A DNA stretch of 64,000 bases from Desulfurobacteriaceae bacterium (GTDB lineage: Bacteria; Aquificota; Aquificia; Desulfurobacteriales; Desulfurobacteriaceae), in contig JALUGO010000009.1 of assembly GCA_027051905.1 (NCBI GenBank), forward strand, positions 62,001 through 126,000, written 5' to 3'. The position numbers and the translations under genes are program-made. The notes under the pieces were generated by a model. That model saw only the letters and a list, made by a program, of their open reading frames with translations, was not told where the DNA came from and made no database searches. Numbering within the stretch: the first letter of the stretch is position 1; every line of letters starts with the position of its first letter. Below, piece after piece: positions 1-4,318 of the stretch.

Positions 1-537
1 AGGGTTCAGAGGATTCCCGTTACAGAGTCTGGCGGAAGGATTCACACTTCAACTGCAACCGTTGCAATCCTTCCAGAGGCTGAAGAGGTTGACATTGAGA
101 TAAACGAGAAAGACTTAAAGATTGATACCTACCGCTCCTCAGGAGCCGGCGGACAGCACGTTAACACAACAGACTCTGCCGTCCGTATTACCCACATTCC
201 AACAGGGATAGTTGTTACCTGCTCAAACGAGCGTTCCCAGATTCAGAACAGGATTAAGGCGATGAAGATTTTAAGGGCAAGGCTTAAAGAGCTTTACGAG
301 AGGGAGCAGAAAGAGAAGCTTGACTCTGCCCGCCGCTCTCAGGTTGGAAGCGGAGATAGGAGCGAGAAGATAAGGACTTACAACTTCCCCGAAGGGAGGG
401 TAACAGACCACAGGATAAAACTTACACTCTACAACCTTCAGGAGTTTTTAGACGGAGACCTTGATGAGATGATAGATGCCCTTGCAGCCGCCGAGCAGGC
501 ACAAAAGATCGAAGAGCTTGCTAAGGCAGATACTTAA
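1..537 (+). CDS. prfA: Peptide chain release factor 1, C-terminal part (partial at window edge)
   Basis: Class I release factor that reads UAA/UAG and triggers peptidyl-tRNA hydrolysis on the ribosome. Frame 1 is open from the first base, giving 178 residues, so the N-terminal half (about 180 residues of a roughly 360-residue family) lies outside the window. The peptidyl-transferase motif GGQ is visible in GAGGQHVN (about residues 49-56 of the fragment). The later stretch [16 protein letters not shown] is typical of RF1. RF1 rather than RF2 is judged from that segment because the PxT/SPF anticodon-like region is not in the window. Function is well supported; only the start is unknown. Confidence 0.95.
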
Positions 538-543
538 GAGATT

Positions 544-573
544 TTGTCTATATGATGAATATTCAAACATAAT
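544..573 (+). promoter_or_regulatory. Possible sigma-70-type promoter for the octaheme cytochrome gene
   Basis: TTGTCT (544-549) and CATAAT (568-573) are separated by 18 bp and lie about 80 bp upstream of the cytochrome start, in the only non-coding gap before it. The -10 matches the consensus at 5 of 6 positions and the -35 at 4 of 6. A half-conserved FNR/CRP-like dyad, ATGAC-ATAA-ATCAA at 584-597, follows just downstream. Both calls are by eye. Confidence 0.35.
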
Positions 574-600
574 AAATTAAAAAATGACATAAATCAATTA

Positions 601-653
601 CTCCCCCTCCAGAAAATGGGAAGATGGAGTTAAACCATATAAAGGAGGGGGAG
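601..653 (+). promoter_or_regulatory. 5' leader stem-loop that can sequester the Shine-Dalgarno of the cytochrome gene
   Basis: CTCCCCCTCC at 601-610 is the exact reverse complement of GGAGGGGGAG at 644-653, which is the ribosome binding site directly in front of the ATG at 656. The mRNA can therefore form a perfect 10-bp, GC-rich stem around a 33-nt loop, with the Shine-Dalgarno paired. There is no U-tract, so it does not look like a terminator. It may act as a translational switch (temperature, protein or ligand controlled). The pairing is seen; the regulatory role is inferred. Confidence 0.5.
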
Positions 654-655
654 CT

Positions 656-1987
656 ATGATAAGAAGGCTCCTGCTTTTATCAGCTGTTGTCTCTGCCTTT
701 ATACTGCCCCAAACTTCTCTGGCTAAAAGCCGGTGTATTGAGTGTCACGAGAAGGTGACCCCCGGCATTGTCAAGCAGTTCCTATCTGGAAAAATGGGGA
801 AAGCTGGAGTTGACTGCTCTGCCTGTCACGGCAGTGAGCACATGACGTCAACCGACTACAAGAAGGCCAAATTCCCAACGCCAGACACCTGTAAAAAGTG
901 TCACCCTGTTCAGGTTCAGCAGTTCAGGGCCGGAAAGCACGACCTTGGCTGGATAGCCTTTAGCGCAATGCCTATGGTTACCCACCAGCCGAGGGCAATT
1001 GTTGGTGCAGGCTACAAAGGGTGTTCAGGGTGCCACAAGATTGGGAGGAAGCCTCCGGAGGTCATGGCACACTACAGGTATGGAAACGCCCAGTGTGATG
1101 CCTGCCACACTCGCCACAAGTTTAGCGTTGAGGAAGCTCGTTCTCCAAGGGCTTGTTCAAACTGCCACATGGGATTTGACCATCCTCAGTGGGAGATGTA
1201 TGAGTCCTCAAAGCATGGGATAATCTGGGACATAGACGGGAGGAAACCGGATGGGAGAGCTCCCACCTGCCAGTTCTGCCATATGCCTGAAGGAACCCAC
1301 AACGTTGTTACTCCCTGGGGCTTCCTGGCTTTAAGGCTTCCAACCAAAGAGAACGTTCTTGCTCTGATTAAAGTGGCACCTCAGCTTGAAAAACAGCTCA
1401 GGTCTTTGGCCGCTAAACTTCCGTCTGGCCACTACATTGACCTTGATGACGACCCGCAGTGGACCTTTGACAGGGCTGTAATTCTTCAGGGAATTGGAGT
1501 CCTTGATGGGAACCTGCAACCAACAGAAAGACTGGAAGTTGTTCTAAAAGCAAGGGTTGTTAGAGGTCCTGAGGAGTTTAACAAGCTCAGAATGGCCATG
1601 AAAAAACGTTGTTATACCTGCCATTCAAAACCTTATATCGATGCTCAATTCAGGGCGGCAGATGAAGTTGTGAAGGCTGCAGATCACGAGTTTGCCAAGG
1701 CCATTCTTACCGTTAAGAAGCTCTACGACGACGGAATACTTAAAAAACCAAAGGGCTGGAAGTATGCCCCAGATATCCTCCACTTCTACGACTCTCCTTC
1801 AGAGCTTGACCAGAAGCTCTACCTCATCTTTCTTGAATATAGACAGAGGGCCTTCCAAGGAGCCTTCCACATAAGCAACGACTATATGCACTGGTACGGT
1901 TGGGCCCCTTTAAAAGAGACCGTTGTTGAGATCCAGCAGAAGGCCAAAGAGCTTAGGGAGCTCCACCAGTTTGAGAAAAAGGAGTAG
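656..1987 (+). CDS. Periplasmic octaheme c-type cytochrome, hydroxylamine oxidoreductase (HAO) family
   Basis: 443 residues with a Sec signal peptide (hydrophobic residues about 5-22, cleavage near A23) and exactly eight CXXCH heme sites: about residues 27, 54, 79, 123, 147, 167, 205 and 319. Heme count, length and the aromatic tail (HWYGW near residue 415) fit the HAO family rather than pentaheme NrfA. In ammonia oxidisers HAO oxidises hydroxylamine; the homologues in anaerobic ammonifiers are proposed to work reductively on nitrite or hydroxylamine. Here a reductive role in nitrate ammonification is inferred. The gene stands alone between a leader hairpin and a palindromic terminator and precedes a heme-type radical SAM gene and hemE. 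Whether the cross-linking tyrosine of oxidative HAO is present needs an alignment. Confidence 0.85.
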   Translation: MIRRLLLLSAVVSAFILPQTSLAKSRCIECHEKVTPGIVKQFLSGKMGKAGVDCSACHGSEHMTSTDYKKAKFPTPDTCKKCHPVQVQQFRAGKHDLGWIAFSAMPMVTHQPRAIVGAGYKGCSGCHKIGRKPPEVMAHYRYGNAQCDACHTRHKFSVEEARSPRACSNCHMGFDHPQWEMYESSKHGIIWDIDGRKPDGRAPTCQFCHMPEGTHNVVTPWGFLALRLPTKENVLALIKVAPQLEKQLRSLAAKLPSGHYIDLDDDPQWTFDRAVILQGIGVLDGNLQPTERLEVVLKARVVRGPEEFNKLRMAMKKRCYTCHSKPYIDAQFRAADEVVKAADHEFAKAILTVKKLYDDGILKKPKGWKYAPDILHFYDSPSELDQKLYLIFLEYRQRAFQGAFHISNDYMHWYGWAPLKETVVEIQQKAKELRELHQFEKKE

Positions 1988-2095: not shown

Positions 2096-3211
2096 ATGGC
2101 TGTAAAAGAGGAGTTTCTGCCAAAGTGGATAGCCTGGGAGATTACAAGACGCTGCAACCTTGAGTGTATCCACTGCCGTTCCGCTTCAACTATAGAGTCT
2201 GAGCAGGGAGATTTCTCAACTGAGGACGGGAAAAAACTCCTTGACGATATAGCGAAACTCTCGAAGCCTACTGTCGTTCTTACGGGAGGTGAACCACTCC
2301 TGAGGGAAGACATCTGGGAGCTTGCGGAATACGGAACTAAACTTGGCTTTAGAATGTGTATAGCCACAAACGGAACTTTAGTTGACGACGAAGTGTGCCA
2401 TAAGATGAAAGAGGTTGGAATAAAAATGGTTTCCCTCTCTTTAGACGGCTCAACTCCAGAGATTCACGACGACTTCAGGAAGCAGCCCGGAGCCTACGAG
2501 GGGGTTATAAAGGCTGCGGAGCTCTTCAACAAACACGGAATTCCCTTCCTTATTAACTCTTCGTTTACAAAGAGGAACGCCTTTGACATCCCAAACGTTT
2601 ATAAGAAAGCTAGGGAGCTTGGAGCAAAGGCCTGGTACATGTTTATAGTTCTTCCCGTTGGAAGGGGAGAGGAGGCCAATGCAGAGCTCCTCAACGCCGA
2701 AGAGGCTGAATACTGGCTCAACTGGCACTACGAGCTTGAGAAGGAACTGATTCTAAAGGGAGATAACACAATCTTAGTCCGCCCGACCTGTGCTCCCCAC
2801 TACTACCGGATCTTCTACCAGAACGCCAAAAGAGACGGCTTAGATCTTAAGAGGAGAAACCTTGTATTTGGAACCGGCGGAGGGAAGGGCTGCGTTGCAG
2901 GACAGTCTATTGCCTACATAGACTGCCATGGCTGGCTCAGACCCTGCAGCTACTTCCCCATTTCCGACGCCAACGTCTTTGACATTCCCTTCCACAGGGC
3001 CTGGTTTGAATCAAAAATAATGCAGGATATGAGAAAGATAGAAGAGTACAAAGGAAGGTGTGGAAGCTGTGAATACGTGAAGATCTGCAACGGCTGTAGA
3101 GTTCGTGCCTACTGGGAGCACGGCGACTACATGCACGAAGACCCTATCTGCCGTTACATTCCTGTGAAAATGAGGGTAGGAGTTGACCTGAACAAGATAA
3201 AACAGGTTTAG
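2096..3211 (+). CDS. Radical SAM/SPASM protein of the heme-biosynthesis AhbD/NirJ type
   Basis: 371 residues. The radical SAM cluster motif CNLECIHC lies at about residues 20-27, followed by the SAM-binding GGEP element (TGGEPLL, about residue 63). The C-terminal quarter has a SPASM-like cysteine set ([14 protein letters not shown] plus nearby Cys) for auxiliary Fe-S clusters. The opening [11 protein letters not shown] resembles AhbD/NirJ enzymes, which decarboxylate or cleave side chains of (iron) porphyrins in the siroheme-dependent or heme d1 routes. hemE starts about 60 bp downstream, supporting a tetrapyrrole role, although HemE belongs to the uroporphyrinogen route, so the exact substrate is open. 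The start has a good AGGAGAG site. Family certain; subfamily probable. Confidence 0.75.
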
Positions 3212-3271
3212 CTTGCTTTCTTTGCTAAACTTTTGCTCGTTTTCTTTTTGATTACTCATCTGGAGGAGAGA

Positions 3272-4318
3272 ATGTCTTTGAAAGACCATCCCATTCTGAA
3301 GGCTGCAAGGGGAGAAAAGACCGAATACACGCCCATCTGGATAATGAGACAGGCAGGAAGGTATTCGGCTAAATACAGGGAGATAAGAGCAAAAGCAGGT
3401 TCTTTTATGGATCTGTGCAAAAACCCTGAGCTTGCGGCAGAGGTTACGCTCATTCCTATAGAAGAAATTGGAGTTGATGCTGCGATTCTCTTTTCTGACA
3501 TCCTCGTTCCTGTTGAGAAGATGGGGATAAACGTCTCTTTTGTTGAGGGGAAAGGGCCTGTTCTTGAGCCAAAGGTTGAGAAACTGGAAGACGTTAAGAG
3601 GTTGAAGGTTCCAGAGCCAGAAAGGGATTTACCTTACGTTCTTGAGACCATTCAGATAATAAAAAAGAGGTTAACCGACAGGCCTTTAATCGGTTTTTCG
3701 GGGGCTCCCTTCACCCTGGCAAGTTACATGTTGGAAGGGGGGAGTTCCAAAAACTACATAGCTGCTAAGTCAACAATGTGGAACAGGCCAGAACTCTGGG
3801 ACGCCCTCATGACTAAACTTACAGATACCATAATTGAATACCTCTCTGCCCAGATAAGGGCAGGGGTTGACCTTGTTCAGATCTTTGACTCCTGGATGGG
3901 AGTTCTCGCAAAAGAGGACTACGAAGCGTTCGTCTTCCCTTACACGGAGAAGATTGTAAATGAGTTAAAGAAAAGACACCCTGAAACCCCTATAATCCAC
4001 TTCGGTGTAAATGCTGCCCATCTCTTAGAGGTAAACAACAGGCTCAACGTTGACGTTATAGGCCTTGACTGGAAGACAGAGATCCCATTTGCCCTTGAAA
4101 GGGTTAACAAGTCTATTCAGGGGAACCTTGACCCTGTAGCTCTCTTTGCCGATGAGGAGACGATAGAGAGGAAAGTGAGGAAAATACTAAAAGAGGGAAT
4201 GAAAGCGCGGGGGCACATTTTTAACCTTGGTCACGGAATACTTCCGCCGACAGATCCAAAAAAGGCAAGGTTCCTGGTTGATACAGTTCATAGAATTAGC
4301 AGGGAGCTCCGCCAATGA
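3272..4318 (+). CDS. hemE: Uroporphyrinogen decarboxylase
   Basis: Converts uroporphyrinogen III to coproporphyrinogen III by four decarboxylations, in the cytoplasm. 348 residues from the chosen start, the usual family length. The signature PIWIMRQAGRY lies near residues 20-30, with the family segments GFSGAPFTLASYMLEG, QIFDSWMG and the C-terminal FNLGHGI. The ATG at 3272 is chosen over one at 3233 because GGAGGAGAG sits 2-9 bp before it and the extra 13 residues look non-native. The stop overlaps the next gene by ATGA. Together with the upstream radical SAM gene this gives a small tetrapyrrole unit, needed for the cytochromes. Confidence 0.95.
   Translation: MSLKDHPILKAARGEKTEYTPIWIMRQAGRYSAKYREIRAKAGSFMDLCKNPELAAEVTLIPIEEIGVDAAILFSDILVPVEKMGINVSFVEGKGPVLEPKVEKLEDVKRLKVPEPERDLPYVLETIQIIKKRLTDRPLIGFSGAPFTLASYMLEGGSSKNYIAAKSTMWNRPELWDALMTKLTDTIIEYLSAQIRAGVDLVQIFDSWMGVLAKEDYEAFVFPYTEKIVNELKKRHPETPIIHFGVNAAHLLEVNNRLNVDVIGLDWKTEIPFALERVNKSIQGNLDPVALFADEETIERKVRKILKEGMKARGHIFNLGHGILPPTDPKKARFLVDTVHRISRELRQ

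Follow-up and report, generated by a model that had tools for sequence, protein, structure and literature searches.

A conserved hairpin over the Shine-Dalgarno sequence of an octaheme cytochrome c gene and its predicted promoter in the loop

Introduction

A hairpin that seals the Shine-Dalgarno (SD) sequence is the usual anatomy of RNA thermosensors, and the transposase genes of Tn10/IS10 are shielded from transcription entering from outside. At the promoter level, regulators of the CRP/FNR family recognise the dyad TGAY-N4-RTCA, and class II CRP/FNR-dependent promoters carry this site centred at -41.5.

Early read-through RNA of the phage T4 genes e (lysozyme), soc, 49 and I-TevI hides the ribosome site, and the DNA encoding the 5' strand of the hairpin holds the late promoters of these genes (PMC3014915). 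In IS200, a stem-loop occludes the ribosome site of the transposase gene, which is shielded from outside transcription (PMC3196728). Here we describe the leader of an octaheme cytochrome c gene from a hot-vent member of the Desulfurobacteriaceae, found in a stretch of 64,000 nucleotides that was analysed as a whole and is called the window below; positions refer to this stretch unless a locus is named.

The octaheme cytochrome gene and its neighbours

The gene (656..1987, plus strand) encodes an octaheme cytochrome c of 443 aa belonging to the hydroxylamine oxidoreductase (HAO) family, with eight CXXCH motifs, a signal peptide-like N terminus and HAO-family matches to 6h5l (6.2e-26) and 1fgj (6.1e-20). 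Its co-directional upstream neighbour is the 3' part of prfA, the gene for peptide chain release factor 1 (1..537, plus strand; Pfam RF-1 and PCRF), whose stop codon ends at 537. Just after the octaheme gene lies a GC-rich palindrome, GGGGAGGGGAGCTCCCCTCCC (1999-2022), which is possibly a terminator and has no T run. The genes that follow encode a radical SAM protein of the AhbD/NirJ heme-synthesis type (2096-3211; the best NCBIfam match, heme b synthase, is below cut-off) and uroporphyrinogen decarboxylase (3233-4318).

Relatives of the octaheme protein with 47-58% identity occur in Beggiatoaceae-type genomes, and an orange Beggiatoaceae octaheme cytochrome is described as oxidising hydroxylamine and hydrazine and also as reducing nitrite (PMC6449678). 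The nitrite-to-ammonium route of T. ammonificans, which shares its genus name with the closest relative (see below), was still presented as open in 2017 (PMC5441870).

A conserved stem over the Shine-Dalgarno sequence

The initial annotation had drawn attention to a perfect 10-bp stem over the SD sequence of the octaheme gene, and this stem is present as described: the left arm CTCCCCCTCC (601..610, plus strand) is fully complementary to the right arm GGAGGGGGAG (644..653, plus strand), which is the SD sequence itself and lies upstream of the ATG at 656. The two arms enclose a loop of 33 nt, within which an inner helix can form between UGG (617..619, plus strand) and CCA (635..637, plus strand).

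When the 106 nt upstream (538-643) were shuffled 200,000 times, a stretch of 10 nt complementary to the SD arm never arose, and one of 9 nt arose once. On the scale of the genome, seven SD-covering helices of at least 10 bp with loops below 60 nt were seen among 1188 SD-bearing genes, compared to about 1.6 expected from dinucleotide shuffles, and stem length alone is therefore modest evidence. The stronger evidence for the hairpin comes from sequence comparison, namely from its conservation and from double changes. The leader was found in just three sequences, the window, L002 and L032, by a contig scan and protein searches of 61 and 22 genomes. L002 belongs to the closest relative (genome G001, Thermovibrio sp. 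WFNZ01000070.1), whose octaheme protein is 97% identical; here both arms are identical, the left one within an unchanged block of 31 nt (585-615), and the DNA upstream of this block has drifted. In L032, whose octaheme protein is 83% identical to that of the window, the left-arm core is kept in 8/8 bases and the outer stem pairs C-G and U-A have both become A-U, preserving complementarity, while the inner pair U617-A637 has likewise become A-U, so that the inner helix reads AGG and CCU. The predicted helix of L032 is 13 bp long, and none of the 13 pairs is broken across the three sequences. Stem pairs were counted by script, as the left arm of L032 came out one base off in the MAFFT alignment. 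A lack of covariation in relatives had been named at the outset as evidence that would speak against the proposed switch; what is seen instead is a total of three double changes, all of them in L032.

One might argue that the arms are an inverted repeat that arose by chance or acts at the DNA level, say as two copies of a protein site, with no role in RNA, given that some SD-sealing helix of 10 bp is expected by chance more than once in this genome. The preserved left-arm core and the outer pairs that changed in step in L032 speak against such a repeat, as does the recurrence of these arms at another gene in three genomes (see below), and we consider it quite improbable. The comparison supports the view that the SD-sealing stem is under selection and that it would block translation of any RNA containing both arms. 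No similar stem was noticed in the leaders of 21 distant orthologues inspected. Among orthologue sites with a near start codon, a Geobacter MAG (L085) provides a single case of an imperfect SD-sealing stem, with TATAAG in its loop.

A CRP/FNR-type operator and the predicted transcript start

Upstream of the left arm lies a CRP/FNR-family operator, TGACATAAATCA (585..596, centre 590.5, no strand assigned), which is unchanged in L002, carries one mismatch in L032 and matches a motif that recurs in front of orthologous genes. Within 250 nt upstream of the called starts, TGAY-N4-RTCA was found at 43 of 80 orthologue loci (44 sites), compared to 1.4 sites in shuffles with a maximum of 5, and dyads with other spacers from 1 to 9 gave 0-2 sites. 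A wider scan, reaching from 400 nt upstream to 60 nt inside the match, returned 51 dyad sites in 44/80 loci. In 15 of these 51 sites a TATAAT-like hexamer (four of six positions matching, with A at 2 and T at 6) begins 29 nt past the dyad centre, as opposed to a mean of 1.4 at other offsets; in 1000 shuffles the maximum for any single offset was 9, and after removal of similar sequences the hexamer remained at 29 nt in 11/42 sites. With the dyad centre placed at -41.5, the offset of 29 nt corresponds to position -12, which is the class II arrangement. The dyad occupies the class II position in the window and in L002, whereas in L032 the copy with one mismatch is in this place and a perfect dyad lies 14 nt further from the ATG. 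The recurrence of the dyad among orthologues suggests that this octaheme family is under CRP/FNR-type control in several phyla. Several gammaproteobacterial orthologues (L075, L045 and L048) carry a pair of CRP/FNR-type dyads in front of their octaheme gene. Across 45 orthologue sites, the spacer between operator and -10 is not generally enriched in SD complements.

As judged from its motif, the operator fits a role in nitrogen-oxide respiration, and we infer that it activates the octaheme gene. In the own genome one CRP/FNR-type regulator gene was found, beside a YgbA_NO gene and a gene of the prismane/CO dehydrogenase family, and its product is a candidate for binding at 585-596. A regulon search with TGA-N6-TCA in the own genome gave no excess upstream of genes.

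If the operator is centred at -41.5, positions -12 to -7 are occupied by the -10-like hexamer GAAGAT (620..625, plus strand), which reads AAAGAT in L002 and GAAAAT, one base further, in L032. The hexamer is a poor one, scoring -8.9 bits on the genome's own -10 matrix. It lies 36 nt before the ATG, and TATAAT in this genome is commonest 36-39 nt before the start codon with a peak at 36. The activated transcript is predicted to start at 632 (plus strand; 590.5 plus 41.5), which would give a 5' UTR of 24 nt, the usual length in this genome. With a start at 632, the left arm, at -31 to -22, would be promoter DNA and absent from the gene's own RNA. The initial annotation had considered that a start downstream of 610 would argue against the stem acting as proposed there, and a start past that position, at about 632, is what the conserved operator together with the class II geometry of the orthologues predicts.

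Other starts were considered. In the window, a strong -10-like TAAATT (573-578) could give rise to transcripts that begin ahead of the left arm, as could a promoter-like pair, TTGTCT-N18-CATAAT (544-573). Hexamers like these are not conserved in L002 or L032, and an upstream sigma-70 start was rejected for this reason. An extended -10 at CATAAA (588-593) with a start at 600/601 was also rejected, since it lacks the final T that is near-universal in the -10 boxes of this genome and, further, since its letters belong to the operator motif.

The promoter-like pair is nonetheless among the observations favouring a regulated leader, in which transcription would start upstream of 601, both arms would always be present and a protein, small RNA or ligand would open the stem. 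The loop letters GG, AA, AT, GA and AACC, which are kept in all three sequences, and the inner helix with its double change would also suit such a leader. Against it stand the lack of conservation of the upstream -10 hexamers and the conserved operator, whose spacing is that of class II with respect to the loop and not to an upstream start. The initial annotation had suggested a switch of this general kind; no Rfam family reaches its gathering score in the window (400-900) or in L032 (2090-2400), the best matches being far below the cut-offs, and no alternative pairing that is conserved and would release the SD sequence was noticed. In sum, we regard a regulated leader as a possible but rather unlikely reading.

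Promoter choice as the proposed switch

The most likely explanation, which we favour with some reserve, is that a promoter within the loop goes along with silencing of run-on RNA from prfA. According to this model, a regulator of the CRP/FNR family would bind at 585-596 in the class II position and activate the octaheme gene's own promoter, and the resulting transcript, starting at about 632 and hence after the left arm, would present an SD sequence that has no upstream partner and can be translated. The left arm would be encoded in the DNA between operator and -10 and enter RNA only by run-on transcription from prfA, in which case it would seal the ribosome site. With the regulator off, the constitutive housekeeping transcript would make none of the costly eight-heme protein, and the switch would consist in the choice of promoter rather than in melting of the stem. 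The start at 632, the occurrence of prfA read-through and its silencing are the inferred parts of this model. No intrinsic terminator was found between prfA and the octaheme gene (400-760), which permits read-through and does not show it. The earlier statement that translation is off unless the stem is opened would thus hold for run-on RNA with both arms and probably fails for activated RNA, given that the predicted start at about 632 lies past the left arm.

Calculated folding of run-on and own RNA

Folding calculations with ViennaRNA give a mean pair probability between left arm and SD sequence of at least 0.91 at 50-85 °C in all three sequences, with 0.91-1.00 at 70-85 °C and 0.91-0.98 at 85 °C. 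At 75 °C, the calculated probability that the SD sequence is unpaired in run-on RNA is 0.011 for the window, 0.018 for L002 and 0.003 for L032, compared to 0.31, 0.29 and 0.17, respectively, for own RNA starting at 632. The corresponding costs of opening the SD sequence are 7.4, 7.9 and 8.3 kcal/mol in run-on RNA and 5.4, 4.8 and 4.0 kcal/mol in own RNA. By calculation alone, the ribosome site of the run-on RNA is predicted to be sealed. However, own RNA of the window may pair its SD sequence with the coding start, which makes the calculated gain from shedding the left arm small. In a longer window RNA at 37 °C the SD sequence pairs partly with the gene start and the left-arm probability falls to 0.45, and at this temperature SD opening in the window costs 15.0 kcal/mol in own RNA versus 13.5 kcal/mol in run-on RNA. 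The calculated figures for the window at 37 °C count against a large effect at that temperature.

The same calculations bear on the suggestion, made in the initial annotation, that the hairpin could be an RNA thermosensor opening with heat. Although a hairpin sealing the SD sequence fits the usual anatomy of thermosensors, the stem is perfect and GC-rich and is predicted to stay closed through 85 °C in all three sequences, and from this folding at 37-85 °C the suggestion was rejected as very improbable; the optimum growth temperature given for T. ammonificans is 75 °C (PMC3570795).

Other genes with the same layout

Of 61 related genomes, five contain the pattern CCCCCTCC-N18-44-GGAGGGGG and none contains its reversed control; the places are the octaheme gene (G000, G001), one place in G013 and a helix-turn-helix (HTH) gene (G001, G002, G004). 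This second gene encodes a protein of 260-266 aa with sigma-70 region 4-like and other HTH matches and is situated behind a class II aldolase-type gene. Its protein was detected in 3/41 genomes searched (G001, G002 and G004), and the stem is present in all three (L128 1501-1545, L131 1501-1544 and, on the minus strand, L129 1501-1545). The arms CCCCCTCCATC and GATGGAGGGGG seal the SD sequence, and a -10 is found inside the loop, reading TATACT in G001, TATACT in G004 and TAAACT in G002 at 36, 35 and 35 nt before the ATG. At 75 °C the calculated cost of opening the SD sequence falls from 9.8, 12.3 and 11.5 kcal/mol in run-on RNA to 3.7, 1.2 and 3.8 kcal/mol in RNA from the own promoter. The HTH gene is the clearest instance of a layout with the promoter in the loop.

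Several further loci show related arrangements. Genome G007 has four copies of a transposase-like gene (L253 3029, L254 15802, L257 13483 and L264 10809; start codon uncertain) with GGTGGACACC and GGTGTCCACC arms over the SD sequence and TACAAT or TAAAAT in the loop, a layout as expected for shielding from outside transcription if our reading of the gene's identity is right. A 15-bp perfect stem of AAAGGCCGCCTCCTG and CAGGAGGCGGCCTTT with TATATT in its 27-nt loop was observed in the own genome (C5, L189 8123) at the start of a gene of 458 aa whose start codon is uncertain.

The looser pattern CCCTCC-N-GGAGGG-N-ATG was found at 78 places, compared to 33 for the reversed control, summed over 22 family genomes; the follow-up covered ORFs of at least 50 aa. 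It occurs in front of the AMMECR1 gene (assigned by Pfam) in 6 of 21 orthologues (G000, G002, G003, G008, G013 and G020), and the AMMECR1 leader of G007 does not fit it. In several genera, leaders of AMMECR1 genes and of what we take to be an AmmeMemoRadiSam-like gene have stems of the form CTCTCCCTCC...GGAGGGAGAG-ATG, whose loops are AT-rich and resemble a -10 (L236 1501-1545; L271 about 7966, minus strand; L241 1501; L152 17767-17809). A short SD-sealing stem of 8 bp is present in several family genera at a gene (L242 1501, L297 9758) that presumably encodes the cytochrome b subunit of a hydrogenase; its loop is too short for a promoter, and the stem may therefore serve translational coupling. 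SecE-like matches of the looser pattern were dropped, as their left arm appears, in our reading, to be the 3' end of a tRNA. A conserved string, CCCTCCCC...GGGAGGGAGGAGATG, near C7:108109 was dropped because it lies antisense within the YgbA_NO gene.

In three genes of the own genome TATAAT directly precedes a short SD hairpin with a loop of 6-10 nt, and 5'-terminal SD hairpins may exist. These cases lend some plausibility to a constitutive brake or stabilising 5'-end hairpin, which would lower translation or decay with no switch involved. At the octaheme gene, however, the loop measures 33 nt, and the three sequences do not share a -10 of usual strength directly ahead of the left arm, which makes such a hairpin improbable here.

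Shine-Dalgarno complements upstream of -10 boxes

The layout was also surveyed across the own genome (1.33 Mb) in an exploratory analysis, in which gene starts came from a simple home-made script and some are wrong. A TATAAT-like hexamer is present 28-50 nt before the start of 234 of the 1188 SD-bearing genes. Where the upstream neighbour is co-directional, 7/122 genes have an SD complement of at least 8 bp in the 22 nt before the hexamer, compared to 0.97 expected when SD sequences are exchanged between genes (none of 400 permutations reached 7), whereas for a divergent neighbour the count is 1/98 versus 1.2 expected. With ATG starts and gaps of at least 30 nt only, the counts are 4/52 (0.57 expected, reached in 2/400 permutations) and 1/62, respectively. 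No excess of SD complements was seen in the next 22 nt further upstream of the -10, nor among co-directional genes that have no TATAAT-like hexamer (2/201 versus 1.2 expected). Compared directly, co-directional and divergent genes differ with p = 0.08. The excess was not replicated in the partial genomes G002, G007 and G013, with co-directional counts of 0/27, 1/49 and 1/29 at 8 bp or more; the single hit in G007 is the transposase-like gene, whose four copies are included in the count. The co-directional and divergent counts leave aside 69 of 1261 called genes that have no neighbour in their stretch, among them, by the rules of the script, the octaheme gene, since prfA is cut by the edge of the window.

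It is conceivable, if somewhat doubtful, that in the Desulfurobacteriaceae a set of genes uses the DNA immediately preceding the -10 for a second layer of control, encoding there the complement of their own SD sequence, such that they would be translated from own-promoter RNA only and run-on RNA would be silenced with no need for a terminator. The octaheme gene would be the activator-controlled case of this set.

Comparison with known systems

As in RNA thermosensors and translational riboswitches, the SD sequence of the octaheme gene is paired; unlike in these, no melting in the growth range, Rfam match or alternative fold was found for its stem. The motif of the operator and, across orthologues, the spacing to the -10 fit class II CRP/FNR promoters, from which the predicted octaheme promoter would differ in that its spacer doubles as an anti-SD arm and its own -10 is poor. 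If the model is true, the spacer of an activator-controlled promoter would constitute an RNA lock directed solely at RNA from elsewhere. This would account for how costly genes that follow housekeeping genes can be kept off in compact thermophile genomes with no terminators in between, and it would provide a sequence rule, an SD complement just upstream of the -10 in combination with a co-directional neighbour, that is testable wherever transcript ends have been mapped. No comparable bacterial chromosomal gene was found in the accessible parts of the open-licence literature, which is weak evidence of novelty.

With IS200 and IS10 the locus would share that RNA entering from outside is kept from translation and that a stem-loop covers the ribosome site, although those are mobile elements and the octaheme gene is a fixed respiratory gene. 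The locus would also resemble T4 gene e, where run-on RNA is sealed, a downstream promoter immediately ahead of the ribosome site yields RNA that lacks the 5' strand and this arm is encoded in promoter DNA. In contrast to gene e, the case presented here, known from sequence, concerns a respiratory gene on the chromosome of a thermophile with the housekeeping gene prfA upstream, and a predicted class II operator of the CRP/FNR type would replace the phage late promoter; if the proposed model holds, a phage trick would be at work on a bacterial respiratory gene.
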